A stretch of 51,895 bases of DNA from an uncultured SAR86 cluster bacterium (GTDB lineage: Bacteria > Pseudomonadota > Gammaproteobacteria > Magnimaribacterales > D2472), in NCBI GenBank assembly GCA_902512655.1, contig CABXJR010000001.1, positions 1-51,895 on the forward strand. Direction: 5' to 3'. Positions 5,260 to 33,290 of this stretch are shown here, piece after piece; the first letter of the stretch is position 1, and each line of letters opens with the position of its first letter. The position numbers and the translations under genes are program-made. The notes under the pieces are model-generated. The model searched no databases. It was not told the DNA's origin and worked only from the letters and a program-made list of their open reading frames with translations.

Positions 5260-7227
5260 ATTAATAAATCAAGAAAAATAATCGTAACAAATGCCCTTCC
5301 ATATGCAAATGGCGACATACATGTTGGGCATATATTAGAGCATATCCAGACAAATATTTGGTCTCGTTTTATGAGTTTAACTCAAAATGAAGTTTTGACT
5401 TTTTGCGCAGATGATGCCCATGGAGCGCCAATAATGATGAAGGCAGATGAAATGGCTATCAAACCCACTGAATTTATCAATGAGGTAAAAAATAGTCATA
5501 TAGAATCATTAGCCAAGTTTGGAATTGAATACACAAATTACCATTCAACACATTCTAAAGAAAATGAATCCTTGGTTTCAGAAATCTATCTAGATGCAAA
5601 ATCTTCTGGATATATATATAAAAAAGAAATTGAGCAATTTTTTGATGAAGAAAAACAAATGTTCTTAGCCGACAGATATGTTCTTGGCGAATGTCCTAAG
5701 TGTTCAGCAAAAAATCAATATGGAGACGGATGTGAGGAATGTGGAGGAACTTATTCTGCTACAGAGCTTATCAACCCAAAATCATCTTTGTCAAAAACTA
5801 CGCCAATAACCAAAACTTCTGAACACATATTCTTTGATCTAGAAAAAGCAAAAAATGAACTTATTAATTTTCTAGATAAATCATCACTACAAAAACCAAT
5901 ACTTGGAAAGTTATCAGAGTGGCTTGATGGTGATTTAAAAAGTTGGGATATATCAAGAGATGCACCATATTTTGGATTCAAGATACCTGATGAAAAAGAT
6001 AAGTATTTTTATGTGTGGGTTGATGCTCCTATTGGGTACATGGCATCAGCAACCAATTGGGCTGATAAAAACTCTCAATCGCTAGAGAATTTATGGGGCA
6101 AAGATTCAGAATACGAGATTCATCATTTCATTGGTAAGGATATTACATATTTTCATGGGTTGTTTTGGCCTGCATTATTGATGGAATCAAAATATAAACT
6201 TCCTGATGCTATTCATGTGCATGGTTTTGTGACTGTAAATGGAGAAAAAATGTCTAAGTCAAAGGGCACATTTATTACAGCTGACCAATTTGCTGATGTG
6301 TGTGATCCAGAATTATTAAGATACTATTTTGCTAGTAAATTAAATTCCAAGATTGAAGACTTGGATCTAAATCTTGAAGACTTGGCTCAAAAAATTAATT
6401 CAGACTTAGTTGGAAAATTTTCAAATATTTTTAGCCGTTCAGCACCATTCATTTCAAAAAATAATAACTGCCTAAGCAAAACAATTCATCAAGACCATTT
6501 GTTAAATTGCAATCAGAGTGTAGAGACAATATTGCAAAACTATGAAGATAGAGAATTTTCTAAAGCAATTAAATTAATAATGGAGATTGCTGACGATACT
6601 AATAAATATATTAATAAGAATGCTCCTTGGAAGCTGGATCAAGCTGAAGCAGTGATCGTAGCAACAACCGCCCTAAATGTTTTTAAAAACTTATGTATAT
6701 TGCTGTCGCCTGTAACACCCGAACTCTCTAAACAGATGTTATTAATGCTGAATATTGATAATCTCAACATAGAAAATCTAGAAACAGAAATAATTGATTC
6801 TGAGATAAGTGAATTTAAACCCATCCTCTCAAGAGTTAAACCATTAAATATTCAAGATTTTTATAAAAAGGAAGAAAAAATGATCGAAGAAGATAATAAT
6901 ATTATTCAAATAGATGACTTCATGAAAGTTGATCTGAGGGTTGCTAAAGTAAAGGAAGCTTCTCATGTGGAAGGCGCAGATAAACTGCTTGCTATTAAAT
7001 TAGACTTAGGTGAGCTAGGAACAAAAAATGTATTTGCTGGAATTAAATCAGCATATGAACCTGCTCAATTAGAAGGGAAATTAGTTGTAATGGTCTATAA
7101 CCTAGCTCCTAGAAAAATGAAATTTGGAGTATCTGAAGGTATGATTTTGGCTGCAAGCGATTCAGATGGCGGTATTTTTGTTTTATCCCCTGATTCAGGG
7201 GCACAACCTGGACAAAAAATTAAATGA
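5260..7227 (+). CDS. metG: Methionyl-tRNA synthetase, non-canonical ATT start
   Basis: 655 residues from the proposed start (E. coli 677). It charges tRNA-Met with methionine. The class I signature [14 protein letters not shown] lies upstream of the first in-frame ATG (5371) and is essential, so translation must begin earlier. The frame is open only back to a TAG at 5236 and contains no ATG, GTG or TTG there; ATT at 5260 gives [18 protein letters not shown], matching the length and sequence of the usual N-terminus. Further features are the zinc knuckle CPKC plus [13 protein letters not shown], an anticodon-binding helical domain, and a C-terminal OB-fold tRNA-binding domain ([11 protein letters not shown]) as in dimeric MetRS. 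The stop overlaps the next gene as ATGA. Confidence 0.93.
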
Positions 7228-12320: not shown

Positions 12321-12749
12321 TTAACCTCTATCTTTAAAATCATCAACATTGATATCAATTGAGCTCACATCATCAGGCTGTGAAATAGACGATTCATTCC
12401 AAAAAGCTCGACCACTCGTAATTTTTCCACTTTCGTTAATAATAAAGTGATCTACAATTGAAATATCCATTCCAGAACTATCATTAATATTTCTAACCTG
12501 CATAACAGCTTTTAGGATACCTTCATTAGAACAAATCACTGTTTCAACATTTGTAGGGTTTATCTCCATTCCATCACTATGTCCAAAATCCCAAAAAGCA
12601 CATATCGCTTCAATTCCATTACAAGGCTCTGCACCTACAGGATCTTCAAATACAGCCTTATCATCCCAAAGGCTTCTGAATAAAGCTTTATCATTATTTC
12701 TGTATGCTAAGACATAATTATCCAACGCTGATTGAACTATTTCTTTCAT
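12321..12749 (-). CDS. SnoaL-like / NTF2-fold protein
   Basis: 142 residues with an N-terminal NTF2-like pattern (LDNYVLAYRNNDKALFRSLW followed by DDKAVFEDPVGAEP), as in ketosteroid-isomerase and SnoaL-like proteins. Many members bind small hydrophobic molecules or catalyse isomerisation or hydration. It is the last gene of a four-gene minus-strand set (KstD-like, SDR, two NTF2-like), which suggests a role in handling cyclic ketone intermediates. No catalytic assignment is possible from sequence alone. Confidence 0.7.
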   Translation of the reverse strand: MKEIVQSALDNYVLAYRNNDKALFRSLWDDKAVFEDPVGAEPCNGIEAICAFWDFGHSDGMEINPTNVETVICSNEGILKAVMQVRNINDSSGMDISIVDHFIINESGKITSGRAFWNESSISQPDDVSSIDINVDDFKDRG

Positions 12750-12757
12750 AGTTATTC

Positions 12758-13243
12758 CTATTTTTTAATTCCCTTATCTTTTAAAAGAATTTTAGTAAAT
12801 TTGTCATCGGGATTAATAGGCGATACTTGTTCCCATATACGATCGTATTCAGAATGTTTAATTAACCATTGATCATTAGTTTTAATGTACCTATCTTCAT
12901 ATAATGCCGTGCCTTGAGTAACGGTAGCTAAATCAAAGTTGTAGAAAATATCTTGAAGATACCATTTCCCAGTAGCCTCAGTCTCTGAAAGAATTTCAAT
13001 TTCTGGATGATGGGCAGTATGCATGGCAGCAGTCTGATTATGAAATGCATGAATTAAGCTTTCTTTGATAGTCTCTTTGCCCTCAGATTCCCATCTATAG
13101 GTACCACCTCGATAATCAATTGTTATATCTTGTGAAAATACATTATCGAGTAAATCAAAATCAGCCATATCTATCGCCCTAAAATATCTATGCTTGAGAT
13201 TTTTGATCTCTTCTATATCAATTAATTTTTGCAGTTTATCCAT
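12758..13243 (-). CDS. SnoaL-like / NTF2-fold protein
   Basis: 161 residues. LQKLIDIEEIKNLKHRYFRA followed by DLLDNVFSQDITIDYRGG is the usual opening of SnoaL_4-type domains, which also include small subunits of ring-hydroxylating dioxygenases. A His-containing segment (HAFHNQTAAMHTAHHPEIE) lines the expected pocket. It sits 5 bp from the SDR stop and 8 bp before a second NTF2-like gene. Function inferred only from context: isomerase, hydratase or binding protein for oxidised cyclic substrates. Confidence 0.72.
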   Translation of the reverse strand: MDKLQKLIDIEEIKNLKHRYFRAIDMADFDLLDNVFSQDITIDYRGGTYRWESEGKETIKESLIHAFHNQTAAMHTAHHPEIEILSETEATGKWYLQDIFYNFDLATVTQGTALYEDRYIKTNDQWLIKHSEYDRIWEQVSPINPDDKFTKILLKDKGIKK

Positions 13244-13248
13244 GCTAG

Positions 13249-14001
13249 TTATCTCAGATATGCTTGACCCCCATCAAGCATGATAGTCGATCCGGTAATG
13301 TAATTCATGCCATCTGACAGAATATGACAAACGGCCTCCCCAATATCATCTTTGCATTCACCCACCCTGCCTAATGGGATGGTTTTAAGAAATTCGTTAG
13401 CTTCATCTGGATGCTCATTCATCCACCAGTCCATACCGGTTGACTTGGCGAGAGGCATTATACAATTTACTAAAATATTGTCCGGCCCCCACTCGACTGC
13501 AGCTGCCCTCGATAAAGAGCGAATTGACTCTTTTACAGCTGCATAAGCACCGTAAGATTTTGAATCAGGTCTTAAAGCAGAGGAGCTTGCTAGATTAATC
13601 ACTTTTCCACCTCCTTTTAGATAAGGGTGACAAGCCTTCATGAAGCGAAATGTTGCCAGAGGTCCAGAATCCCATCCATTTATAAATGATTCGTCTGTTA
13701 CATCTAAAATATTTCCCAATGGAACTTCTTGAGCATTGTTTACCAAAATATTTAAAGAATTAAACTTTGATAGTGTGGCTTTAATAGATTTGTTAATTGA
13801 TTCATTACATTTAACATCGCATTCAACAGCTATGGCTGAGCCACCGTCTTGATTTATTTGATCAGCAACCGATTCAACTTTTGAAAGAGTTCTACCAACC
13901 AAGCTCACGTTTCCTCCATATGAAGCAATCGCTCGAGCAATACCCTCTCCAACACCTTGTCCGGAGCCTGTAATTAATGCTGTTTTATTAGAGAAATCCA
14001 T
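13249..14001 (-). CDS. Short-chain dehydrogenase/reductase
   Basis: 250 residues from the chosen ATG at 14001 (MDFSNKTALITGSG). A longer frame upstream exists but would run into the KstD-like coding region and adds an unrelated N-terminus. The NAD(P)-binding motif is TGSGQGVGEG, the structural motif is NNAQ, and the catalytic residues are Ser in NLASSSAL and YAAVK. The closing GSTIMLDGGQAYLR is typical of classical SDRs. Two bases separate it from the KstD-like stop. Probably oxidises or reduces a hydroxyl/ketone in the same pathway. Confidence 0.9.
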   Translation of the reverse strand: MDFSNKTALITGSGQGVGEGIARAIASYGGNVSLVGRTLSKVESVADQINQDGGSAIAVECDVKCNESINKSIKATLSKFNSLNILVNNAQEVPLGNILDVTDESFINGWDSGPLATFRFMKACHPYLKGGGKVINLASSSALRPDSKSYGAYAAVKESIRSLSRAAAVEWGPDNILVNCIMPLAKSTGMDWWMNEHPDEANEFLKTIPLGRVGECKDDIGEAVCHILSDGMNYITGSTIMLDGGQAYLR

Positions 14002-14003
14002 AG

Positions 14004-15713
14004 TTAAAAATTTGAACCAGTAATGTGTTTTGCAGCCAAGTAACCAAAAGTCATGGCTGGACCAAGAGTTGAGCCAGGGCCAGGATATGTAGGTAACAAG
14101 GCTGTTGAGCAATTTCCACACGCATAAAGTCCTGGTATCGCTTTACCTTCTTTGTTTATAACTCTTGCATTTGTATCTATTACTAGACCGCCCGCAGTAC
14201 CCATTTCACCAGGATATAGAACCATACAATAAAAGGGTCCAGTTTCTAAAGGAGCAAGACATGGATTTGGTGTAACTGATGGATCGCCGTAATACCTATC
14301 ATAAACACTATCACCACGTTGAAGATCAAGGTCTTTGCCTGATGCAGCATATTCATTAACTTTTGCCTGTGTTGCTAAAAGACCTTCAACATCAATGCCA
14401 GCAACTTCAGCTAGTTCCTCTAATGTCTCACCCTTTGATAAAAAAGATGGTGTCCACCAATCCTTAGGAACAGATGAATCAGGCTGCATAGATGCTTGAA
14501 GAAGAGGTCCGCATGGTCGATTTTTTCTAAATGTGCTATCAAAAATCATATAACATGGAGCACAGGGATTTCCCTCCGCATATTTATCAAACATATCATT
14601 TACAAAGCTGACATAATTTTGGGATTCATTTGAAAATCTTTCACCGTTTTTATTGACGGTAAAATTTCCAGGCATTGATTTATCTACCATTGATAGCCAA
14701 CCTTTATCTTGTCCTGGTACTTTCATAACAGTAGACCACCAACCTGTATCCATTTGATGAGTATCAGCTCCTAATTTTAAAGCAGCTTTTAATGCATCGC
14801 CTGTATTATAAATATTGGCAGCACTCCACTCTATATTAGTGGGCTGAGGTAAATATTTTTCTCTCAAACTTTGATCTTTTTCAAATCCGCCAGAAGCAAG
14901 AATGACACCTTTGTTTGCTTTAATATTTATCTCAATATTATTTTTAGTAGCTTTAATACCAATTACTGAGCCATTTTCATCGATGAGATCAGTCATAGTA
15001 GTTTCAGTCCATAAAACTACATTTCTATCTTTGAGGGATAAAATTAATCGAGCCACACCTGCATTTCCCATAGTCAATCTTCTATCTTTCCAACCCCATT
15101 TAACCCTCATGGATATATCTAAAATATATTTAGTGAATAGTTTTGCAAAGAGAGATTTCCACCCTGGAAGTGCGCCTAACAATAACTGGCCTTCTACTTG
15201 AGTAAAATTCATATTGATTGGCCCCATAGTAAATGCAGTTTGCGGATGCTGTTCCCTGAGTTTCCGAAGATCGTCTCCAAGCTCAGTTCCTTTGATTGGC
15301 TCAGGTTCCATGGACCTATTCCCTGCTTTTCCACCAGGATTATCTGGAAAGTAGTCTGGATAATGAGCTAAATTTCTGTACTTAACTTGTGAATTTTCAT
15401 GAAGATAATCAATCATTTTGGGACCTTCAGAAAGATAAGTTTCCACTAGCTCATCTTTAATTTTTCCTTCAGGTGAAACGCTATTTATATAGTCCCTCGC
15501 ATCTTGATTAGAGTCATCAACATTTTCAGCTTTAGCATACCTGTTATTGGGAATCCACACCCCTCCACCAGAGGTTGCTGAGGTACCGCCAAATTGAGTG
15601 CTTTTTTCTATAACCAAAGTTTTTGCGCCACCATCGTGACTACATAAGGCAGATGTTAAAGCTCCGTTACCAGAACCGATTACAACCACATCAAATTCAT
15701 AATCCCATTTCAT
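14004..15713 (-). CDS. FAD-dependent 3-ketosteroid dehydrogenase-like protein (KstD family)
   Basis: 569 residues, the normal size for 3-ketosteroid delta-1-dehydrogenases and related FAD_binding_2 enzymes. The FAD motif is VVVIGSGNGALTSAL, followed by GGTSATSGGGVWIPNN, which is the KstD-type block. Near the end YPGEMGTAGGLVID and TYPGPGSTLGPAMTFGYLAA correspond to the family's active-site and FAD-binding regions. KstD introduces a C1-C2 double bond into 3-ketosteroid ring A. Other cyclic ketones are possible substrates. First gene of a minus-strand set with an SDR and two NTF2-like proteins, divergent from the nitronate-monooxygenase-like gene. Confidence 0.85.
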   Translation of the reverse strand: MKWDYEFDVVVIGSGNGALTSALCSHDGGAKTLVIEKSTQFGGTSATSGGGVWIPNNRYAKAENVDDSNQDARDYINSVSPEGKIKDELVETYLSEGPKMIDYLHENSQVKYRNLAHYPDYFPDNPGGKAGNRSMEPEPIKGTELGDDLRKLREQHPQTAFTMGPINMNFTQVEGQLLLGALPGWKSLFAKLFTKYILDISMRVKWGWKDRRLTMGNAGVARLILSLKDRNVVLWTETTMTDLIDENGSVIGIKATKNNIEINIKANKGVILASGGFEKDQSLREKYLPQPTNIEWSAANIYNTGDALKAALKLGADTHQMDTGWWSTVMKVPGQDKGWLSMVDKSMPGNFTVNKNGERFSNESQNYVSFVNDMFDKYAEGNPCAPCYMIFDSTFRKNRPCGPLLQASMQPDSSVPKDWWTPSFLSKGETLEELAEVAGIDVEGLLATQAKVNEYAASGKDLDLQRGDSVYDRYYGDPSVTPNPCLAPLETGPFYCMVLYPGEMGTAGGLVIDTNARVINKEGKAIPGLYACGNCSTALLPTYPGPGSTLGPAMTFGYLAAKHITGSNF

Positions 15714-17210: not shown

Positions 17211-18515
17211 TTAATTACTACCGTAAAAATCAGATGAATAATCTTGAACTAAGTTAACAAATGCTTTTACGCCATTGGTTAAAGCTGAATCATCTATATA
17301 AAAATATGGTGAATGATTTGTGGGACCGTCTTCAACTCCTGGAGCATTAACCCCAAGAAAAAAGAATAAACCCGGAACTTGTTGAGCATAAAAGGAAAAA
17401 TCTTCGGCGCCAGTTCTAGGAACCCTTGCTTCAAAAAAATCTCCATTGGTAGCTTCTATTAATGAAGCTGAATATTTCTTAGCAAGATTTTCATCATTAA
17501 AAGTCACTGGATAGCCTCCATAAACTTTAAATTCAGTTACGGCAGAGGCATGATGAGCAGCTGCTACATTTTCAGCAATAAGTTTAATTTCATCTCGTAT
17601 TTGATCTGCATATGAATCTTTGAATGTTCTAATGGTCCCCTCTAACATTGCTGTGGACGGTATGATGTTATTTCTTGTTCCAGCCTTCATAATTCCGACT
17701 GTAACTACAGCCTGACTATCCAAAAGATTTAATCTTCTACTTACGATGGTTTGCAATGTTGTAGCTATATCAGATGCTGCAATAATTGGATCAACCCCAC
17801 TCCATGGTCGCGAACCATGAGTTTGTTGTCCTTGGACGATTATCCTAAAAGCTTCTGCTGAGGCCATAATTGGACCGGGTTTTGTCCATATTTGACCATT
17901 CTTAAAGTTTGATACATGCATTCCAAAAACAGCATCAGGCTTTTCAGCTTCAAAAAGGCCCTGTTTAAGCATTAATTCGGCGCCGCCCTCTTCACCTTCA
18001 GGAGCGCCTTCTTCGGCTGGTTGAAATATTAATAAAATATCACCATTTAACTTATCAGTATTCCTAGAAAGGAAGCTGGCAACCCCCAATAAAACTGCTA
18101 TGTGAGCATCATGACCACAAGCATGCATTACTCCAACTTCATTACCCTGATATGTGGTTTGAACTTTTGAAGAAAATGGGAGATTTAGTTTTTCTGTAAC
18201 TGGCAATCCATCTATATCAGCTCTCAAGGCTATTAGTGGACCGGGGTTTTGACCTCTTATAAATGCAGTAACTCCAGTAATTCCATAGTCTGTATTGGGC
18301 TCTAGACCCATTTCATTTAATGCTTCAACTATAGACTCTTGAGTTTTGAATTCTCTATTTGAGAGCTCTGGATACTCATGGAAATGATGTCTCCAGTCAG
18401 TAACCTTTGCCATGACACCTTGGAGGTCTCTATCCAATTGATTTTTTAAATCGTCTGCTGACATAGCATGTATGACAAACATTAAAGTAAAAAATATATA
18501 TAGCTTCTTCATCAT
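17211..18515 (-). CDS. Exported M20-family metallo-amidohydrolase
   Basis: 434 residues with a signal peptide (KKLYIFFTLMFVIHAMSA). M20D-type zinc-binding residues are seen in GVMHACGHDAHIAVLLG and PAEEGAPEGEEGGAELML, with a dimerisation domain after residue about 210. Family members (hippurate hydrolase, N-acyl-amino-acid deacylase, IAA-amino-acid hydrolase) split amide bonds of N-acyl amino acids. The gene is the seventh and last of the F420 operon, starting one base from the DUF1295 stop. A link to F420 (for example trimming glutamyl amides) is speculative, as the signal peptide places it outside the cytoplasm. Confidence 0.9.
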   Translation of the reverse strand: MMKKLYIFFTLMFVIHAMSADDLKNQLDRDLQGVMAKVTDWRHHFHEYPELSNREFKTQESIVEALNEMGLEPNTDYGITGVTAFIRGQNPGPLIALRADIDGLPVTEKLNLPFSSKVQTTYQGNEVGVMHACGHDAHIAVLLGVASFLSRNTDKLNGDILLIFQPAEEGAPEGEEGGAELMLKQGLFEAEKPDAVFGMHVSNFKNGQIWTKPGPIMASAEAFRIIVQGQQTHGSRPWSGVDPIIAASDIATTLQTIVSRRLNLLDSQAVVTVGIMKAGTRNNIIPSTAMLEGTIRTFKDSYADQIRDEIKLIAENVAAAHHASAVTEFKVYGGYPVTFNDENLAKKYSASLIEATNGDFFEARVPRTGAEDFSFYAQQVPGLFFFLGVNAPGVEDGPTNHSPYFYIDDSALTNGVKAFVNLVQDYSSDFYGSN

Positions 18516-19394
18516 CTAACCTTTTTTAAAAACGTTTATAAAAATTGCTGGGGTTGATTCCATGTATTCTTTAAAATCTGGACGTCTGTCTAATGAACGT
18601 TTATCCATCATTGAGACAGATGCTAAGGCTATTAAAGCATACATAATCAAAGAACCAATCAACAACCATGCAAATGATAGATTTGATGCTAAAGCAAAAA
18701 CAAACAGACTAAACCAAAATAATAATTCTCCAAAGTAATTAGGGTGACGTGAGTAGAACCACAAGCCTGATTTCATAGTTTTAGGTTCAGTTAGATTTTT
18801 TCTAAAATTATACATTTGCTGATCTGAGACAATCTGAATTATGACTGCTAAAACAGCCAAAAAAGTAGCCAGTATATCTAAGTTATTTAGATCAGCGCCA
18901 GGGTAAGCAAGTGCATAAATCATTGGTAGTAATGCCATATAAACACACAGAGTAGGAATAAGATGTATAGAACCAAAATCTACTATGAAGTATTGAAGTC
19001 TATTATTCGTTTTTTGTTTCATCATAATGTATCGCCAATCTTCATGAGAAAAGCCATCCCATGACCTCATCCAGTTAAAAGTTAATCTAATAGCCCAAAA
19101 GAATAAACACGCATGCATCAAGAATGATCTTTGAACGTCTCCAGCAGCAGAGATGTCTGCCCAGCACATTATAGTTAAAACAACTGGGATGATTGACCAA
19201 AAGGCATCATACCAACTTGAATTATTGAAAATTATACTTAACAGGTAAATAAAAATTGTAGCCTCAATATGACATATTAAAACTTTGAGTACTAAGGATG
19301 ATTCTGGAAAAGAATTCCAAGTAAGTTGCATAGAATAAATACATGCAATGTAACCAATAAAAATAACTGAAAGGTGTGTAAGTTTTTTGCTCAT
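18516..19394 (-). CDS. DUF1295 / steroid 5-alpha-reductase-like membrane protein
   Basis: 292 residues with about seven hydrophobic segments. The C-terminal block SGLWFYSRHPNYFGELLFW is the NADPH/substrate-binding signature shared by DUF1295, steroid 5-alpha-reductases and isoprenylcysteine methyltransferases. Homologues reduce C=C bonds of steroid-like enones at the membrane, or are of unknown function. It overlaps the fbiC stop by 4 bp (ATGA), so is translationally coupled to F420 synthesis. It might be a reductase that uses the same redox economy; no F420-binding motif is recognisable. Confidence 0.85.
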   Translation of the reverse strand: MSKKLTHLSVIFIGYIACIYSMQLTWNSFPESSLVLKVLICHIEATIFIYLLSIIFNNSSWYDAFWSIIPVVLTIMCWADISAAGDVQRSFLMHACLFFWAIRLTFNWMRSWDGFSHEDWRYIMMKQKTNNRLQYFIVDFGSIHLIPTLCVYMALLPMIYALAYPGADLNNLDILATFLAVLAVIIQIVSDQQMYNFRKNLTEPKTMKSGLWFYSRHPNYFGELLFWFSLFVFALASNLSFAWLLIGSLIMYALIALASVSMMDKRSLDRRPDFKEYMESTPAIFINVFKKG

Positions 19395-21805
19395 AAGGTA
19401 TTAATTATATGTTTAGGTTTATTATATTCATTGATTATTGGGATCAATGAAGTTGATTGTAAATTAATTAAGTCTTGAAGATTGTTTTTTATGGGTTCAT
19501 AAAGAGTATTTCTTTGTTTTAAATTTAAGCCTAACTCTTCTGCAATACATGCAACGTCATCCAGATTAAGCTCCTGGCCAAATGAGGCGCCAGCTGACCT
19601 TGTTATAGATTCATTCATCAAAACACCCCCAATGTCATTAATTCCAGAAGATAAAAGATATTTTAGACCTGGTAACCCCATTTTAACCCACGAGCCTTGA
19701 ATGTTATTTATGCTTCCATTAAAAAGAATTCTCGCAACGGAGTGCACTAAAATTGTCTCCTTGAAAGTAGGCCCAGGTCTTGCTTGGCCTCTTCTAAAAA
19801 TAGGTGCTTCATTCGCAATAAAAGGCAGGGGAACGAATTCAGTTAACCCGTTCGTGCTCATCTGAAGAGTTAAAAGCTTCATTAAATGGTGGGCGATATG
19901 ATGAGTGCTCTCGACATGACCAAACATCATGGTAGATGTAGTAGGCAGCCCTACTGAATGAGCGGTTTTGATAATCTCAATCCACTGTTTGCTTGTGAGT
20001 TTATCAGGGCAAATAATTGATCTAATATCATCATGCAAAATCTCAGCGGCTGTTCCGGGAAGTGAATTAAGACCTGCGTTTTTAAGTTCTATAAGAAATT
20101 CTTTAGCAGAAATATTTAAAGTTTTTCTACCGTGATCAATTTCTAGAGGGGAAAAAGCATGAATATGAACTGAACGGGAAGCAGATCTAATTGCCCTTAC
20201 AATTTCAAGATAAGTTTCACCAGAATATTTTGGATGAATGCCACCCTGTAAACAGACTTCTGTCGCACCTCTATCAATAGCTTCATTTGTTCTTCGAATG
20301 ATCTCTTCATGAGAAATGTTATATGGCTTGCCTCTTAAGTCATCATGCCCCCTACCTTTAGAGAAAGCACAAAAATTACATTTAAAAGAGCATATGTTTG
20401 TATAGTTAATATTTCTATTCACAACAAAACTAATATTAGATCCATGTATTTGTGATTTAACATCATTGGCATATTCAGTAATATATTTAAAATCATTATC
20501 AGAGACCTCTAAGAGCTCTTGGATATTGTCAATAGATGGATTGTTCTCAACATCATGGATCGACTGGCGTATATTAGAATGAAAAATAGATTCTGGGTAT
20601 AAAGGTATATATTTACTAATTCCTGATCTCCAATGGTCAGACCTTATAAGTGACTGAGAATCTGTTATTTGAAGAAGCTTGGAGGATATTTCATGTGTTG
20701 AGAAGGTCTTCAGGTCGGAAAAATATCTAGGGTACAATGTTGCCCTTGGTTTTAAAGATTGATTTGAGAATGAGGCTATTTTATTTAATTTTTCTATTTC
20801 AGGCCAAGGTGCTTCTGGATTCACATAATCCTTGGTAACTGGAGATATTCCTCCAAAATCATTTATCCCAGACAAAGTTAATTGTTTAACATTCTCTGCA
20901 TTTAGATTGGGTGGGACTTGTAAGCTAATGTCGCCAGGCAGAATTAATCTAGCCATAGAAATTGTCCACATTAGCTCATCAAATGATGGCTCGATTGCAT
21001 TTGCCATCAATGTATTAGGCTTTGCTCTAAAGTTTTGAACTATAACTTCTTGGATATGATTATATGTATTATGTAATTCAGCTATTTTGTGTAATGACTC
21101 TAAACGTTCTAACCTCGTTTCACCTATTCCAATTAATATTCCAGTGGTAAATGGAACTTTTTGTCTTCCAGCATCTTCTAAGGTCTGCATTCTAAATATA
21201 GGATCCTTGTCAGGAGATCCATAGTGCGGCTGACCTTTTTCAGTAAGCCGTGATGAGAGAGATTCAACCATTAAACCCATTGAGCCGCTTAAAGGCTTGA
21301 GTTTTTTGATTTCATCAGAAGTTAAGCAACCTGGATTTAAATGAGGAATTAAAGAGGTCTCATTCAATACAGCTTCTGCGCAAGCAGCCAGGTAATCATT
21401 TGTTGTTTTGAAGCCATTGATTGAAAGCCAATCTCTAGCAGCTTTGTATCTTAATTCGGGCTTATCACCAAGTGTAAATAAAGCTTCATAACAACCATTA
21501 ACCTCGCCCTCTTTTGCAATTGAAACAACTTGATCAATTGATAAGTATGGAGATTCAACTTTTTTAGGGGTTTGAGCAAAAGTACAGTAATGACAAACAT
21601 CGCGACATAAAAATGTTAATGGGATGAAAACCTTTGGTGAGTAGGTTAATAAATTTTTAAAATGCCCTTTTTTCTTCTCATAGGATGCTTGAATTAGAGC
21701 ATCGGATAAACAAATATTAGCCAAAGAGGTTAAAGCAGAAAAATCTATAGATCCAGTAGCAATTAACTGCTGCAAAGTATAATTTGATTGTTCTTGAATC
21801 TTCAA
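19391..21805 (-). CDS. fbiC: FO synthase, CofG-CofH fusion (FbiC)
   Basis: 804 residues, comparable to actinobacterial FbiC (about 850). Two radical-SAM halves: the N-terminal CofG-like half has CRDVCHYC and the C-terminal CofH-like half has CSFKCNFC, each a CX3CX2C cluster motif. Flanking blocks FIPLTFLCRDVCHYCTFAQ and VNRNINYTNICSFKCNFC are diagnostic. The enzyme joins 5-amino-6-ribitylaminouracil and tyrosine to give the deazaflavin FO, the committed step to F420. The fused gene is the bacterial arrangement; most archaea have separate cofG and cofH. It follows cofC by 4 bp and overlaps the DUF1295 gene. Confidence 0.95.
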   Translation of the reverse strand: MKIQEQSNYTLQQLIATGSIDFSALTSLANICLSDALIQASYEKKKGHFKNLLTYSPKVFIPLTFLCRDVCHYCTFAQTPKKVESPYLSIDQVVSIAKEGEVNGCYEALFTLGDKPELRYKAARDWLSINGFKTTNDYLAACAEAVLNETSLIPHLNPGCLTSDEIKKLKPLSGSMGLMVESLSSRLTEKGQPHYGSPDKDPIFRMQTLEDAGRQKVPFTTGILIGIGETRLERLESLHKIAELHNTYNHIQEVIVQNFRAKPNTLMANAIEPSFDELMWTISMARLILPGDISLQVPPNLNAENVKQLTLSGINDFGGISPVTKDYVNPEAPWPEIEKLNKIASFSNQSLKPRATLYPRYFSDLKTFSTHEISSKLLQITDSQSLIRSDHWRSGISKYIPLYPESIFHSNIRQSIHDVENNPSIDNIQELLEVSDNDFKYITEYANDVKSQIHGSNISFVVNRNINYTNICSFKCNFCAFSKGRGHDDLRGKPYNISHEEIIRRTNEAIDRGATEVCLQGGIHPKYSGETYLEIVRAIRSASRSVHIHAFSPLEIDHGRKTLNISAKEFLIELKNAGLNSLPGTAAEILHDDIRSIICPDKLTSKQWIEIIKTAHSVGLPTTSTMMFGHVESTHHIAHHLMKLLTLQMSTNGLTEFVPLPFIANEAPIFRRGQARPGPTFKETILVHSVARILFNGSINNIQGSWVKMGLPGLKYLLSSGINDIGGVLMNESITRSAGASFGQELNLDDVACIAEELGLNLKQRNTLYEPIKNNLQDLINLQSTSLIPIINEYNKPKHIINTL

Positions 21806-21809
21806 CGAG

Positions 21810-22385
21810 CTAACTCTTAATATATTTAATTAGTTTGAAGTAATCTTCCTCGGAGTCAAGGTCATCCTGAAGGCTTTCTATGCAAACATCTTGATAATTT
21901 ATTTCATTATTTTTGAATTCATTTATAAAAAGATTGTAGCTATCTATACCAAATTTAAGCTTGAAATTAACTGACGAATTAAACATTAAGCAATTTGTTC
22001 CTTGCTTTACAAGATCTGAAATAATGCTAACTTTTTTGACATCAAAAATTTTTGTTAGCTCCTGAAGATCTAATTCATTAATTCTGGGAAGATCGGCATG
22101 CATGATTAAAATAATGTCATTTTTAGCATGAGAATTTATAGCTTCATTTAAACCTTCATTCAATAATGATTTTGTAAAATATGACGTTGCATTATTTAAA
22201 TGTAAATTTTTGTCATTTGTAACAACTGTTATTGAGTTACATATCTTAGAATTAAATAAAGTATCTATTGTTTTCTTTGCCATTAAGGCGGCTAGATTCT
22301 CTCGCTCAGATGAACTAACAATATTTGATAATCGCTTCTTTGAAGTTAAAAATTTTTTAATCGGTATAAATGCAGATACATTCAT
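21810..22385 (-). CDS. cofC: Phospholactate/PEP/3PG guanylyltransferase CofC (FbiD)
   Basis: 191 residues. It activates a three-carbon phosphoacid with GTP for transfer to FO. Features are IPIKKFLTSKKRLSN at the N-terminus (GTP site), TVVTND, the metal-binding LIMHADLPRI, the QGTNCLMF stretch and the FGIDSYNLF segment, then DLDSEEDYFKL. The start codon directly abuts the cofD stop. Whether it uses 2-phospholactate (archaeal), PEP (mycobacterial FbiD) or 3-phosphoglycerate (as in Paraburkholderia) cannot be read from the sequence. Confidence 0.9.
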   Translation of the reverse strand: MNVSAFIPIKKFLTSKKRLSNIVSSSERENLAALMAKKTIDTLFNSKICNSITVVTNDKNLHLNNATSYFTKSLLNEGLNEAINSHAKNDIILIMHADLPRINELDLQELTKIFDVKKVSIISDLVKQGTNCLMFNSSVNFKLKFGIDSYNLFINEFKNNEINYQDVCIESLQDDLDSEEDYFKLIKYIKS

Positions 22386-23315
22386 TTATTTTGATTCAAG
22401 CTGGTGAATTATTGCCTTTGCAAGTGCATTTTTTGAGTTAGTGCTATTCATGATTAAATTATTATTATGCACTTCATATCCTAATTCATTTAACTCACTA
22501 GACTCATTCAAATCTGATGAATCTATAAAAATTCTTTTAGAATAATTTTTATAAAACTTAGCAATTGTAATAACACTTACTTCATAACCAAGCTCATTCA
22601 TCATTTTTGCAGTTGGGCCTTTTAATGATTGAGCATTAACGATAGGACTTATAACACTAACTTTTTCTGAAAAATCCTGTAAATAATTTTTTAGAGATGA
22701 TAACTGAAGCATCGGGTTTATACTTACATAAGGATTAGATGGGCAGACAATAATTTCATCATAAGTTGATAAATCTATATCTTTATTAAATTCAGCTTTA
22801 TCAAGGCCCTTAAAAACAAAATCAGTCACTGGTGGCTCGCATTTCAATTTTACAAAATATTCTTGAAATGAAAGCAACCTATTTTTTGTTTGAATATAAG
22901 TCTCAACAGGTTGATTGCTCATTGGAAAAATATACTTTGGAAGATTAAAAGACTCACATAAATTATGGGTTGCTTGAGTTAAAGATTGACCAGATTTAAT
23001 TAAATTTGTTCTTTGGATATGAGTTGCTAAATCTTTGTCTCCAAGCTGAAACCAAGTTTCCCGCTTCATGGCACCTAATGCTGAAAGCATATTCCATGAT
23101 TCATCTTTTCTACCCCAACCCTTTGATAGATCTGATTCACCAGCAAGGGTATACATCACAGTATCAAGATCGGGACAAATTTTAAGGTCAAGATGAATAA
23201 AATCATCTCCAGTATTGACAGCAATGGTTAAGTTATCTGCATCGATTGAATTTTTAAATCCTAATGCAAGTTTAGCCCCTCCAACTCCTCCACATAGTAA
23301 AAGATAATTTTTCAT
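22386..23315 (-). CDS. cofD: FO phospho-acid transferase CofD (FbiA)
   Basis: 309 residues, normal for the family. It transfers the activated phosphoacid to FO to make (dehydro-)F420-0. The glycine-rich N-terminus LLLCGGVGGAKLALGF, VNTGDDFIHLDLKICPDLDTVMY-like region (beginning VNTGDD), GWGRKDES and the block VCPSNPYVSINPML are characteristic. It overlaps cofE by 4 bp (ATGA) and abuts cofC, so all three are translated together. Confidence 0.94.
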   Translation of the reverse strand: MKNYLLLCGGVGGAKLALGFKNSIDADNLTIAVNTGDDFIHLDLKICPDLDTVMYTLAGESDLSKGWGRKDESWNMLSALGAMKRETWFQLGDKDLATHIQRTNLIKSGQSLTQATHNLCESFNLPKYIFPMSNQPVETYIQTKNRLLSFQEYFVKLKCEPPVTDFVFKGLDKAEFNKDIDLSTYDEIIVCPSNPYVSINPMLQLSSLKNYLQDFSEKVSVISPIVNAQSLKGPTAKMMNELGYEVSVITIAKFYKNYSKRIFIDSSDLNESSELNELGYEVHNNNLIMNSTNSKNALAKAIIHQLESK

Positions 23316-24073
23316 CTGAATAGATCCTCTTCTTCACTACGAATTAACGACTGAGAGTCACTAAGATTAGTTTGATTAAATTTATAACCTTTGATTAACA
23401 CAACAGGTTTTTTTTGAGCAGCTTGACCCATTAATAAAGATGCGGCGGCTGCTAACTCATCAGCAATACCAATTTGAGTAACTTTAAGTTTATTGCCAAA
23501 TAGATCATTTTTTCCACGTTCATCTAAAAGGCATTCAATATTATGGCTGCCTATAGTAAAACCCACTATTCCATTTCTAAAAGGCCTTCCCATGGTATCG
23601 GTAATAATTACAGATATATTTTTTTGAAAATGTTGAGATAAAGATTCTGAAATTATCTTTGCTGAATTGTCTGGATTTTCTGGTAATAATAATACGATGT
23701 CTTTTTCTTGATCTGTATTAGACCTGTCAATTCCCGCGTTCGCATGAATAAATCCTAACTTGTGCTCAACTATTAATACTCCCATCCTGTAGCGAACTAC
23801 CTTCTTTGATTCATTTAGGATTGCTTGAATAAACTTTGGATCTTTATCAATTTTTCTTGATAAAGTTAATGCCTCCTCTGAAGGGCTAAGCTGTGAAATA
23901 TCTAGATATCTGTTTTCTGATTTAGAAATAATTTTTTGTGCAACTGCTATTACATCTCCATCAGCAATCTTAATTGATTCAGATTCTATCCCATTAATAA
24001 TTTCTTTAGACAAATCTTGTCCAGGTTGGATAAGGGGTAATGTCTCTAATGCTATGAGGTTTATAGAACTAAT
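23312..24073 (-). CDS. cofE: Coenzyme F420-0:L-glutamate ligase CofE, non-canonical start
   Basis: 253 residues from the proposed ATT start at 24073. It adds gamma-glutamates to F420-0. The conserved opening INLIALETLPLIQPGQDLS corresponds to the first strand of CofE/FbiB (LP.I.PGDDL) but lies upstream of the only canonical in-frame start, a TTG at 24013. No ATG, GTG or TTG occurs between 24014 and the TAA at 24104. ATT at 24073 follows an AAGAGA block by 6 bases. DGDVIAVAQKIISKSENR, HANAGIDRSN and ITDTMGRPFRNG-like blocks confirm the family. The FMN (nitroreductase) domain of mycobacterial FbiB is absent. The gene overlaps fno slightly less than its own open frame allows. Confidence 0.9.
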   Translation of the reverse strand: MSSINLIALETLPLIQPGQDLSKEIINGIESESIKIADGDVIAVAQKIISKSENRYLDISQLSPSEEALTLSRKIDKDPKFIQAILNESKKVVRYRMGVLIVEHKLGFIHANAGIDRSNTDQEKDIVLLLPENPDNSAKIISESLSQHFQKNISVIITDTMGRPFRNGIVGFTIGSHNIECLLDERGKNDLFGNKLKVTQIGIADELAAAASLLMGQAAQKKPVVLIKGYKFNQTNLSDSQSLIRSEEEDLFR

Positions 24074-24087
24074 GATATTTCTCTTTT

Positions 24088-24720
24088 TTAGTGGCCTGTG
24101 ATCTTAATACCTGAATGGGCAAGTGAGTGTTTTTTATTGATTGCAATAAGTATTGAGGTTAATGCTTCTGCTGCAACTGAATTACAGAGTGGTCCAGCAT
24201 GCCATCCAGTTAGACCAGCATCGGATGCTAAACCAATAACAGTATTTCTAGCATCAACAAGATCCCCAGCAACCAATACATCACAATCAATGTTTGCATC
24301 AGTTTGAAGTAATTCGGCAGAAATATTTTGAAAGGCTGATATTACAGTAGTATGTTCACCCAGAATTGATTGGGCATTTAATGCTGCTGAGCCCGCTTTA
24401 GGTAATTGAACCCTCATTACTTTTGGAGGCATAAGGGGAACAGTTGCATCAACCATAATTTTGTTATGCAAAGCGTTCTCAATACTTAAAAGAGTTGATT
24501 CTTGATGAGCGAATGGCACTGTTAAACATGCGAGTTCACAAGATTTAGCCGCATCAATGTTTAGCATTCCAGATGAGCTATCAAGACCTAATTGCACAGC
24601 AATATCTTTGGCTTTTAATAAGTCACGACTCCCAATAAACACTTCATGACCCGCTTTAATCCATCTTGATCCCAATCCTTTACCCAAAGACCCTGTCCCG
24701 CCCAGAATAGCTATCTTCAT
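24088..24720 (-). CDS. fno: F420:NADP+ oxidoreductase (Fno/NPD)
   Basis: 210 residues. Reduces F420 with NADPH, or the reverse, linking F420 to the general nucleotide pool. The NADP-binding motif AILGGTGSLGKGLGSRWIKAG, with GSRD after it, and the later block VDATVPLMPP are typical of the F420-dependent NADP reductase family. First gene of the F420 operon. It has a very good Shine-Dalgarno (GGGAGG, complement of 24727-24732) 6 bases before the start. Its stop lies 14 bp upstream of the proposed cofE start. Confidence 0.92.
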   Translation of the reverse strand: MKIAILGGTGSLGKGLGSRWIKAGHEVFIGSRDLLKAKDIAVQLGLDSSSGMLNIDAAKSCELACLTVPFAHQESTLLSIENALHNKIMVDATVPLMPPKVMRVQLPKAGSAALNAQSILGEHTTVISAFQNISAELLQTDANIDCDVLVAGDLVDARNTVIGLASDAGLTGWHAGPLCNSVAAEALTSILIAINKKHSLAHSGIKITGH

Positions 24721-24863: not shown

Positions 24864-25628
24864 ATGATAAATTTAAAAAATAAATCAATTGTGGTAACCG
24901 GTGGCACAAAAGGCATAGGCATAGAGATTGTAAAATCTTTTTTAAAACAAAATACTAATGTCTATATCCTTGCAAGACAAAAACCGAAAAGAATAATCCA
25001 AGCGAAAGGTAATAAAGCTGTTTTTATTGAATGTGATATTAGAAATATTGATTCTCTAGACAATGCAACAAAAGAAATTAAGAATCTCTCAAAATCAATA
25101 GATGTTCTAATTAATAATGCTGGTGGGGCTCCAATGGCCAATGCCTTAAACGTATCCAATAAATTTCATGAAGCCATCATCGATTTTAATTTATCTGCTC
25201 CACTAAACGTAAGTCAAAGATTTGCAAGAATTATGATGAAACAAAAGACAGTTTCAAACATTATTAATATATCTAGCGTTACAGCAACCAGACCAACGCC
25301 GGGAAGTGCGGCTTATGGTGCAGCCAAAGGTGGTCTTGTAAATCTAACGAAGACCTTGGCAGTTGAATGGGCTCCAAAAATTAAAGTGAATTCTATAATT
25401 GTAGGTTACATAGAAACAGAAAATTCGATAGTGCATTACGGGAGTAAAAAAGAAATCAATAAAGTTGCTAAAACCATTCCAATGAAAAGAATGGGAAAAC
25501 CTGAAGATATTGCAAATGCTTGCATGTTTTTTGCTTCAGATTTAGCGAATTGGATTACTGGTGCAGCCCTTGAAGTACATGGTGGTGGTGAAAAACCTAG
25601 TTACTTAGAGGTTGCTAAACCTAAGTAA
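24864..25628 (+). CDS. Short-chain dehydrogenase/reductase
   Basis: 254 residues, classical SDR. The cofactor motif is TGGTKGIGIE, followed by NNAGG, the catalytic Ser in NISSVTA and the YGAAKG Tyr/Lys pair, ending with ITGAALEVHGGGE. It is divergent from the F420 operon and convergent with the aldehyde dehydrogenase gene, with 2 bp between stops. Substrate not deducible; the neighbourhood suggests an alcohol or ketone from lipid or terpenoid oxidation. Confidence 0.9.
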   Translation: MINLKNKSIVVTGGTKGIGIEIVKSFLKQNTNVYILARQKPKRIIQAKGNKAVFIECDIRNIDSLDNATKEIKNLSKSIDVLINNAGGAPMANALNVSNKFHEAIIDFNLSAPLNVSQRFARIMMKQKTVSNIINISSVTATRPTPGSAAYGAAKGGLVNLTKTLAVEWAPKIKVNSIIVGYIETENSIVHYGSKKEINKVAKTIPMKRMGKPEDIANACMFFASDLANWITGAALEVHGGGEKPSYLEVAKPK

Positions 25629-32327: not shown

Positions 32328-33290
32328 ATGAATAATAAAAAAAGATACCCAATGCCCATACCCTTTGGATGGTATGTTGTTGACTATATTGATGAGCTTA
32401 AATCAGGGGACGTGAAGCCTGTAAGATATTTCGGTCAAGATCAAGTCCTATTTAGGACTGAATCAGGTCAGGTGAGTATGTTAGATGCATACTGCCCTCA
32501 TTTAGGAGCTCACCTTGGTCATGGAGGTATTGTAGATGGTGAATGTATTGAATGTCCTTTTCACGCATGGAGATGGAAAACAGATGGAAAAATTGGCGAA
32601 ATACCCTATGCAAAAAATATTCCTCCAAAAGCCAAAGAGACTAAAATATTTACATATCCAACTGTTGAACGAAATAACTTAATATATGCTTGGTATCATC
32701 CCAATGGTGAAGAACCTCATTATGAGGTTGAAACCTATCCAGAAATTAATGATCCGGACTGGAGTGATGAATTTGAAAAGTTTGAATATCACATTAAATG
32801 TCACATACAAGATATGGCAGAAAATGCTGTTGATGCTGCTCATTTCATGTATGTTCACGGAGTCGCTTCATATCCTGAATTTGAAGTAACTTACCAAGAT
32901 CAAAAAAGATTTTTCTCTCAAAAAGCTGACATGATTACACCTAGAGGTACTGTAAAAGGAAAAATATCTGGTGCATCTAATGGACCCGGCGATAATTTTA
33001 CAAAGTTTGAAGGTATATGTGAAACCCTGCTTTTAGGCTCAACAACTCCCACTGAAAATGAAGAAGTTATTACAAGGTTCTCTTTTCTTCAAAAGAAAGT
33101 TGACGGAGAGGTGCCGACTGGTGGAGTTGGTGCTGCAATTATTGCCGACATAAATAAGCAAATTAAAGAAGATATACCAGTTTGGGAAAATAAGAAATAT
33201 GCATCCAAACCTGTCCTATGCGATTCAGATGGTCCAATTGCTAAATTTAGAAAGCATTTTGCAACTTTCTATGCTGATCAAACAAAGTAG
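32328..33290 (+). CDS. Rieske non-heme iron oxygenase, KshA/cholesterol-desaturase-like
   Basis: 320 residues. N-terminal Rieske domain with [2Fe-2S] ligands CPHLGAHLGHGG and CPFHAWRW. The mononuclear iron motif is NAVDAAHFMYVHG (Asp-x2-His-x4-His). The general plan matches the terminal oxygenase of 3-ketosteroid 9-alpha-hydroxylase and cholesterol 7-desaturase. It needs a reductase partner, which is not adjacent; the FNR at 7224 or a gene elsewhere could supply electrons. Followed by a Baeyer-Villiger-type monooxygenase 19 bp downstream. Confidence 0.87.
   Translation: MNNKKRYPMPIPFGWYVVDYIDELKSGDVKPVRYFGQDQVLFRTESGQVSMLDAYCPHLGAHLGHGGIVDGECIECPFHAWRWKTDGKIGEIPYAKNIPPKAKETKIFTYPTVERNNLIYAWYHPNGEEPHYEVETYPEINDPDWSDEFEKFEYHIKCHIQDMAENAVDAAHFMYVHGVASYPEFEVTYQDQKRFFSQKADMITPRGTVKGKISGASNGPGDNFTKFEGICETLLLGSTTPTENEEVITRFSFLQKKVDGEVPTGGVGAAIIADINKQIKEDIPVWENKKYASKPVLCDSDGPIAKFRKHFATFYADQTK

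Follow-up and report, generated by a model that had tools for sequence, protein, structure and literature searches.

A coenzyme F420 operon in SAR86 marine bacteria and its possible link with steroid-like ring catabolism

Coenzyme F420 is a deazaflavin cofactor best known from methanogens and Actinobacteria. Here we describe the genes for its biosynthesis in SAR86, which confirms the streamlined marine gammaproteobacterial host assumed by an earlier reading based on the DNA letters only (the sequence-only reading). We have analysed a stretch of 51,895 nucleotides, called the window, from an uncultured SAR86 cluster bacterium (contig CABXJR010000001.1); its assembly of 43 contigs adds up to 953,812 bases, with a completeness of 72%. 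The window contains five minus-strand genes for F420, which form an operon at 19391-24720. The SAR86 order makes up to 6% of the surface-ocean community and some of its sublineages are predicted to degrade steroid rings, according to passages of a recent paper (PMC11582366). Part of a 2021 review (PMC8498797) states that experimental work is still needed on what F420 does in bacteria other than Actinobacteria.

Two described systems are close to this locus. The mycobacterial one (FbiA, FbiB, FbiC and FbiD) has the same fused architecture of FbiC, and the CofD and CofC proteins of the window are homologous to FbiA and FbiD. It differs in two respects: the window CofE is without the C-terminal domain of FbiB, and Fno adjoins the operon. 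The other system is found in Paraburkholderia and Mycetohabitans, a Gram-negative producer of 3-phosphoglycerate-derived F420 (3PG-F420) for which Fno is the known reducer, as described in part of PMC8498797. In this case the difference lies in CofC, which in the window does not have the serine related to 3-phosphoglycerate (3-PG). A passage of the same review reports that P. rhizoxinica has none of the known families of F420 enzymes, whereas such families are present in the window genome. The features of the operon are the following:

24720-24088, minus strand: fno/npdG, NADPH-dependent F420 reductase, 210 aa (NCBIfam TIGR01915, 176 bits, cut-off 149.8).
23312-24073, minus strand: cofE, F420-0:glutamate ligase, 253 aa if translation begins at the proposed ATT, 24073-24071 (TIGR01916, 251 bits, cut-off 180.65).
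23315-22386, minus strand: cofD, transferase of phospholactyl (or phosphoenolpyruvate, PEP) to FO, 309 aa (TIGR01819, 268 bits, cut-off 257.45).
22385-21810, minus strand: cofC, guanylyltransferase, 191 aa (TIGR03552, 103 bits, cut-off 105; Pfam CofC above cut-off).
21805-19391, minus strand: fbiC, CofG-CofH fusion, FO synthase, 804 aa (TIGR03550 and TIGR03551 above their cut-offs).
24756-24751 and 24732-24726, minus strand: TATAAT and the ribosome site GGGAGGT, upstream of fno, by reading of the sequence.

The NCBIfam and Pfam matches and the coordinates bear out the five genes and the single run on one strand that had been proposed, in the order fno, cofE, cofD, cofC, fbiC. All steps of F420 biosynthesis are represented in our searches with family profiles: FO synthase, CofC, CofD and CofE. 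FbiC is a single protein with a CofG domain (482 bits, cut-off 213.35) and a CofH domain (493 bits, cut-off 374.1) in NCBIfam; its radical-SAM cysteines C67/71/74 and C472/476/479 are invariant in eight aligned SAR86 sequences. CofC is 2 bits below its NCBIfam cut-off, yet above that of Pfam. The closest solved structures to CofD are a 2-phospholactate transferase (3c3d, E 9e-50) and a phosphoenolpyruvate transferase (6uvx, E 5e-46). CofE has a single domain, with no FbiB-type C-terminal domain fused to it in the NCBIfam search.

Other details of the initial description have to be modified. The interval 17211-24720 had been taken as the operon: the five genes are indeed there, but it also includes a DUF1295 gene (18516-19394) and an M20 gene (17211-18515). 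Tight spacing is found at most junctions; the ordinary start of cofE leaves 74 bases after fno, while the proposed ATT leaves 14. The ribosome site, 5 bases ahead of fno, and the -10 sequence are present as described, but a two-hexamer promoter scan of the region lists no full sigma-70 site before fno; the scan itself is no better than chance, with 26 sites in the region against a shuffle mean of 36.1.

The comparison with other genomes involves the genes which surround the operon:

18516-19394, minus strand: DUF1295 membrane protein (PF06966, 145 bits; weak match to the steroid 5-alpha-reductase family PF02544, 25.6 bits, cut-off 22.6).
17211-18515, minus strand: M20 amidohydrolase (TIGR01891, 325 bits), with an N-terminus that reads like a signal peptide.
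24864-25628, plus strand: short-chain dehydrogenase/reductase (SDR) oxidoreductase, divergent from fno (PRK07856 family, above cut-off).
14004-15713, minus strand: kstD-like 3-oxosteroid 1-dehydrogenase (best PDB structure 7p18, a 3-oxosteroid 1-dehydrogenase, E 2e-136).
12321-14001, minus strand: open reading frames of two small SnoaL/NTF2-like proteins (SnoaL by reading) and an SDR adjoining kstD.
32328-33290, plus strand: kshA-like Rieske oxygenase (best PDB structure 4qdc, the oxygenase of 3-ketosteroid 9alpha-hydroxylase, E 1e-44).

We have coded the SAR86 families and genera as f1, g1 and so on; the window belongs to genus g1, and the loci of family f1 cover g1, g8 and g10. CofD is found in 31 of 100 genomes of the SAR86 order: 23/26 in g1, 3/5 in g8, 2/2 in g10, 1/1 in g11 and 2/2 in g17, with none in the 64 genomes of other genera. 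FbiC is also found in 31 of the 100, but the two sets are not identical. Five members of the CofD-positive genera have no CofD: FbiC is cut by a contig end in G011 and partial in G046 (91% complete), while G001, G005 and G056, each at most 81% complete, are without FbiC as well. A tree of rpoB unites the F420-positive f1 genera in a single clade (support 99); among the 27 labelled genomes three changes of the F420 label are needed.

The gene order M20-DUF1295-fbiC-cofC-cofD-cofE-fno is kept in 17 f1 loci (20 loci from 20 relatives were compared), with G013 lacking fbiC. Most f1 loci have the same SDR, aldehyde dehydrogenase (ALDH), APH-like and further flanking genes, the SDR being unmatched in L035. 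Three f2 loci keep the F420 order; DUF1295 adjoins fbiC in two of them (L031 and L047), and L047 has SDR, ALDH and APH-like genes further out. L034 is without fbiC, and both L031 and L034 end within cofE at contig ends. Judged from the sequences, the recurrence of the operon block in f1 and in loci outside SAR86 is not due to chance. A chimeric contig, an objection raised in the sequence-only reading, is unlikely because many assemblies, each separate from the others, contain the locus; judging by their names, the AG-labelled ones seem to be single-cell genomes. A peculiar case is G013 (locus L033, between 11183 and 11240), where DUF1295 comes 56 bases after cofC and fbiC is gone from the operon; this genome, 78% complete, has no FbiC match elsewhere and eight matches to the luciferase-like family (LLM) discussed below.

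CofD is uncommon in the class as a whole: 14 of 369 genomes have a real match, 13 above the cut-off and one split over two contigs, when seven weak matches are omitted. The loci which we have named come from the best 80 of 579 confirmed matches to the SAR86 profile; 61 of them are outside SAR86. Among these 61, fno-cofE-cofD are ahead of fbiC on the same strand in 33, some of which also have a cofC match between cofD and fbiC. An SDR homologue is divergent from fno in seven of the 61, including named Halieaceae and Spongiibacteraceae. Seongchinamella unica (L149), HTCC2148 (L196), Litorivivens (L145) and Zhongshania (L167) are examples of loci close to that of the window: they have fno-cofE-cofD-cofC-fbiC on one strand, a divergent SDR upstream of fno and an FbiC 50-51% identical. 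Unlike the window, these loci of about 18 kb show no match to its kstD or DUF1295. SAR86 adds to the range of F420 hosts, although public genomes already include many marine Gammaproteobacteria that have F420 genes.

Plasmid clusters of Croceicoccus marinus (L201), Novosphingobium resinovorum (L207) and Aromatoleum (L202) share with the window the FbiC fusion, Fno and CofC, and L201 and L202 also the single-domain CofE. They differ in that the clusters are plasmid-borne and their FbiC falls outside the gammaproteobacterial clade; the order in L201 and L202 is fbiC-fno-cofE-cofD-cofC, and the L207 region has no cofD or cofE match. LLM genes lie beside the F420 cluster in L201 and L207, and L207 has a flavoprotein 34% identical to the window kstD. 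The F420 genes of these two sphingomonad plasmids are also near NTF2-like and FAD-dependent oxidoreductase genes, with Rieske proteins too in L207, a catabolic setting which resembles that of the SAR86 locus.

Enzymes which might use the cofactor are encoded elsewhere in the SAR86 genomes. At least two LLM genes are present in all 31 CofD-positive genomes, against 6 of the 69 CofD-negative ones, five of which belong to CofD-positive genera; 12 of the 15 CofD-negative genera have no LLM gene. Strong matches to the Ddn-like family FDOR-A are found in 21/31 and 3/69 genomes respectively, the latter three again in CofD-positive genera. The window genome has LLM proteins above the cut-offs of TIGR03617 (two) and TIGR03619 (one), subfamilies named as F420-dependent, and an FDOR-A above that of TIGR00026; the best structures for this FDOR-A include deazaflavin-dependent nitroreductases. 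Their neighbours have been partly named by reading: one LLM gene is next to two acyl-CoA-synthetase-like genes, another is next to an NMO/FabK-like gene and 3 kb away from acyl-CoA dehydrogenases, and FDOR-A stands in a series with SDR, P450, TonB-receptor-like and acyl-CoA dehydrogenase genes. In G060 (f2) fbiC and cofC are separated by an LLM gene of TIGR03619 type, which is on the other strand; genes of kstD and Rieske type are found some 6 kb away from fbiC. We infer that the LLM and FDOR proteins use F420. A complete operon together with such families points to a functional pathway, as was initially proposed.

The surroundings of the operon suggest a role for these enzymes. In the window it is placed between the kstD-like and kshA-like genes. 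NCBIfam KSTD models match the kstD-like protein strongly, but below their cut-offs; the order of the SnoaL/NTF2-like pair and SDR beside kstD is kept in f1 loci, and in G010 kstD is about 50 kb from the operon. In the 60 SAR86 genomes searched, KstD homologues (E<1e-35) are confined to CofD-positive genera. At the same threshold, HsaC/BphC-type dioxygenases are found in 27/31 CofD-positive and 5/69 CofD-negative genomes, all five in CofD-positive genera, so that the 32 of 100 genomes which have them all belong to F420-positive genera. In G010 the HsaC-type gene is followed by a CoA-transferase subunit with best structure 6co6 (E 1e-75), which we take to be IpdA. The locus also has a putative partner gene of the CoA-transferase, two genes of the enoyl-CoA-hydratase family, a FabK-like gene, a thiolase and acyl-CoA dehydrogenases, one of them IpdE2-like below cut-off. 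G032 and G060 have gene runs with N-termini similar to those of this locus. Candidates for the steroid ring set of 9,10-seco type (KstD, KshA, HsaC and IpdAB) are the KstD- and KshA-like proteins in the window and the HsaC/BphC-type protein and CoA-transferase subunit in G010, below family cut-offs. According to passages of PMC11582366, kstD, kshA and hsa genes are limited to part of the genomes in one SAR86 family, which fits the distribution found here, and part of PMC4810484 also describes steroid genes in SAR86. F420 and KstD-/HsaC-type ring-degradation genes are nearly co-distributed in SAR86; their co-location and co-distribution are new here.

The association is not limited to SAR86. 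In the class without G000, HsaC-type matches at E<1e-50 are found in 7 of 13 CofD-positive and 7 of 355 CofD-negative genomes (Fisher p 3e-8, kinship ignored), and outside SAR86 it recurs in five families of the class.

These data suggest the following scheme. FbiC would make FO; CofC would activate 2-phospholactate or PEP, which CofD would couple to FO, and CofE would add the glutamates. Fno would then reduce F420 with NADPH, and F420H2 would serve the luciferase-like (TIGR03617, TIGR03619) and FDOR-A reductases. In this clade the reductases most likely reduce double bonds or keto groups, with steroids or comparable polycyclic compounds as the type of substrate. Steroid-like substrates are proposed because the operon sits among kstD-, kshA-, SDR- and P450-type genes, and the genes have a nearly equal distribution. 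The operon would have been inherited in the lineage and retained mostly where such catabolism was retained, and the other SAR86 genera do not have it. What can be read directly in the genomes is the presence and conservation of the genes, the user families and the co-distribution; that F420 is made in SAR86 cells and that the substrates are steroid-like is deduced from them. A real, complete and inherited F420 system with candidate user enzymes is well indicated by the genomes of SAR86. For the whole scheme, in which the five genes make F420, F420H2 serves reductases of steroid-like catabolism and the operon is inherited, we consider the chances somewhat better than even.

Several observations weigh against this scheme. 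G013 and G075 have cofC-cofD-cofE and no FbiC match; they may possibly rely on FO from other cells. LLM genes are found without CofD: two in G099 (g20) and a single weaker one in g14 (7/9) and g18 (1/1). Genus g10 has no FDOR-A (0/2). The third LLM gene of the window genome adjoins an aceE-like gene, and none of the three adjoins kstD or hsaC. The window genome, 72% complete, has no HsaC match. F420-positive g17 has LLM genes and no HsaC-type gene (0/2), and KstD is missing in the one g17 genome, of two, that was searched. No HsaC-type match reaches the family cut-off, either in the order (0/100) or in the class (0/369), and the G010 protein fits a biphenyl-type model (278 bits) better than HsaC (258 bits; cut-off 450). 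When the class-wide threshold is set at E<1e-74, the association shrinks to 2/13 against 4/355 (p 0.016, kinship ignored), one of these four CofD-negative genomes being at 2.6e-75. Finally, the co-distribution within the order rests on about three tree changes and not on 100 independent genomes, because the F420-positive genera are few and related.

A more general proposal is that, in the SAR86 lineage and in the wider Gammaproteobacteria, F420H2-dependent LLM and FDOR enzymes take part in steroid or polycyclic ring catabolism, and that both were mostly kept or lost together in streamlining. We put it forward only tentatively, at clearly less than an even chance; the odds of a joint steroid and F420 function are lowered because one LLM adjoins the aceE-like gene and because the HsaC-type matches are below cut-off.

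Instead, F420 might be made for general protection, such as quinone and nitro reduction or redox stress, or for some other metabolism through FDOR-A and LLM enzymes, with steroid genes kept only incidentally in the same SAR86 genera. The lack of HsaC-type genes in g17, the nitroreductases among the best structures of FDOR-A, the LLM beside the aceE-like gene and the few independent events within the order would all agree with such a role. It leaves aside the kstD- and kshA-like genes on either side of the operon and the HsaC-type association seen again in five families outside SAR86, and we find it rather unlikely.

Another alternative concerns the end product, which could be 3PG-F420 or dehydro-F420 (DF420), as CofE has no fused reductase domain of FbiB type. 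No dedicated DF420 reductase stands out because nitroreductase-family genes are common to F420-positive and F420-negative SAR86: the family is present in 54 of 60 genomes of both kinds, and no nitroreductase was found to co-occur with F420. The residues of CofC speak otherwise. In an alignment mapped by eye, the window protein has Leu, Thr and Gly at the positions of L92, T148 and G163 of M. tuberculosis FbiD, while CofC enzymes which prefer 3-PG have Ser at the position equivalent to G163, according to part of PMC8764529; this Ser, typical of 3-PG enzymes, is absent from the window CofC. The 2-phospholactate route, moreover, needs no reductase. Since the residues are of FbiD type and not of 3-PG type, the F420 tail is probably the ordinary one, derived from 2-phospholactate or PEP, and a variant cofactor seems improbable.

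The sequence-only reading had proposed a gain of the operon by transfer. Taken as a recent event, this would be a horizontal transfer from an F420 producer outside the Gammaproteobacteria. There is some ground for it: part of PMC8764529 proposes actinobacterial transfer for Gram-negative F420 producers, and FbiC is found on 58 plasmid records and is therefore mobile in principle. We have compared 107 FbiC proteins. They come from 109 sources, of which L033 and L034 are without FbiC; a genome may appear twice among the sources, with different locus ids. A quick tree has 83 rows, with SAR86 near-duplicates omitted, and a careful one has 42, the other 41 having been removed after the quick tree was viewed. 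Both are biased to close relatives, since the named loci are the best 80 of 579 matches; other classes and phyla enter as eight plasmid regions, two of them from Rhodococcus (one in the careful tree).

Among these named loci, the closest FbiC relatives are titled SAR86 in 16 of the 17 loci L117-L133, with 55-97% identity. In the careful tree SAR86 forms one clade (92/86) with two parts, f1 and f2. Its neighbour is a marine record titled Methylococcaceae TMED69 (88/95), and together they are nested in a gammaproteobacterial clade (88/69) to which the plasmid rows (alpha-, beta- and actinobacterial) do not belong. The FbiC groups follow genus and family, in agreement with rpoB. An approximately unbiased (AU) test does not reject a tree in which non-SAR86 gammaproteobacterial FbiC form one clade apart from SAR86 (p 0.086) and the supports are moderate; hence nesting of SAR86 within other gammaproteobacterial FbiC is favoured by the best tree, not proven. 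This grouping with other Gammaproteobacteria is near the outcome that the sequence-only reading had itself set against its proposal, and it gives no support for a foreign origin. One sequence stands apart: FbiC of L136 (NVVJ01000023.1), titled SAR86 cluster bacterium NORP66, groups with Halieaceae-like sequences outside the SAR86 clade, so that its label or bin may be wrong.

Foreign codon use was also looked for and rejected: the five genes do not differ from 41 other genes of the window (Mann-Whitney p 0.18 for GC, 0.10 for GC3 and 1.0 for mean codon log-probability). We thus find neither deviant codon use, nor patchiness within the genus (CofD in 23 of 26 genomes), nor a foreign position in the tree, while the position of the operon is conserved in three genera. 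A clean empty site was sought beside DUF1295 in eight loci of F420-negative genera (L247-L254), and none has the f1 neighbourhood. A P450 52% identical to that of the window (41631-42983) adjoins DUF1295 in L250 and L254, pdxJ is nearby in L251, and otherwise the matches are few and weak (SDR, NMO-like, sulfotransferase and ABC); no empty site can be demonstrated because only such scattered matches are shared. A recent gain is very unlikely. We take the operon to have been inherited in SAR86 for a long time and lost in places; a transfer may have happened early on, either into the Gammaproteobacteria or from one SAR86 family to another.

That the cell requires FO alone, as an antenna of photolyase for instance, with the other genes vestigial, is hardly credible: we found no point in its favour, though photolyases were not searched for, whereas the window has intact cofC, cofD, cofE and fno, the compared loci of the genus retain them, users of F420 families are present, and two genomes keep cofCDE without an FbiC match, the opposite of what would be expected.

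The start of cofE is a peculiarity of this operon. From ordinary starts its open reading frame is 23312-24013; about 20 residues are then missing and the TIGR01916 match begins at profile position 23. We have looked for ATG, GTG or TTG 8-18 codons ahead of a conserved Pro, excluding rows truncated by the locus end or without a recognisable anchor. In the other marine gammaproteobacterial operons an ordinary start is found in 29 of 33 distinct non-SAR86 sequences, again from the best 80 of 579, and it is present in both G060 of f2 and its FbiC neighbour L175. In contrast, it is found in none of 21 distinct sequences of g1, nor in five of other f1 genera. At codon -12 the g1 sequences have ATT (12) or ATC (9) in all 21 cases, where G060 has ATG and L175 has TTG. 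Four g1 sequences (L007-L010) have an in-frame stop immediately ahead of ATT-ATT or ATT-ATC. The most likely start of the window cofE is ATT at 24073-24071.

A similar situation is found in metG (window 5260-5262). In 18 of 20 g1 loci read there is no ATG, GTG or TTG before the first conserved block, and ATT, ATC or ATA is found nine codons before it; two further g1 loci were not picked up by the pattern. Initiation would thus take place at ATT/ATC in cofE and ATT/ATC/ATA in metG, and this genus may make use of non-canonical starts in a number of its genes. The methionyl-tRNA synthetase itself (window 5371-7227), including its C-terminal domain, is one reading frame in f1. Of the 24 f2-f4 genomes searched, 19 match it in two distinct frames and three more have a single match with an internal stop.

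Two neighbours of the operon deserve a comment. DUF1295 overlaps fbiC by 4 bases and is its neighbour in the f1 loci as well as in L031 and L047/L303 of f2. As a partner specific for F420 it has been rejected, as homologues are found in 60 of 60 genomes searched, with 39-47% identity in several F420-negative genera. The M20 amidohydrolase is beside the operon in f1 loci, and the three f2 loci have no M20 match; we consider it only a neighbour, since nothing ties it to F420 synthesis. In G002 (L042) DUF1295 and M20 are fragmented next to intact F420 genes, through either gene decay or assembly errors.

We did not find F420 described in SAR86 in the literature searched, to which the SAR86 genome paper of 2012 and the F420 survey of 2017 did not belong. 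In the parts seen of PMC8067304 and PMC9088280, F420 refers to F420 hydrogenases, unconnected to SAR86. PMC11582366 is not among the matches for F420 and SAR86, the portions available of this paper do not contain "deazaflavin" or "F-420", and those of PMC4810484 do not contain "F420". A search pairing F420 with Halieaceae found no paper. Within this literature, the locus extends the known distribution of F420 to SAR86, as had been anticipated.

The finding points to a possible unrecognised role of F420 in an abundant kind of marine bacteria. The operon, the users and the candidate substrates give a genomic handle on SAR86, which is hard to grow. Co-distribution and co-location with steroid-type ring catabolism are the part most worth testing. 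If the proposed scheme is true, a deazaflavin cofactor would be involved in the turnover of steroid-like carbon in the sunlit ocean, and a role of F420 outside Actinobacteria would become testable in cultured marine relatives.

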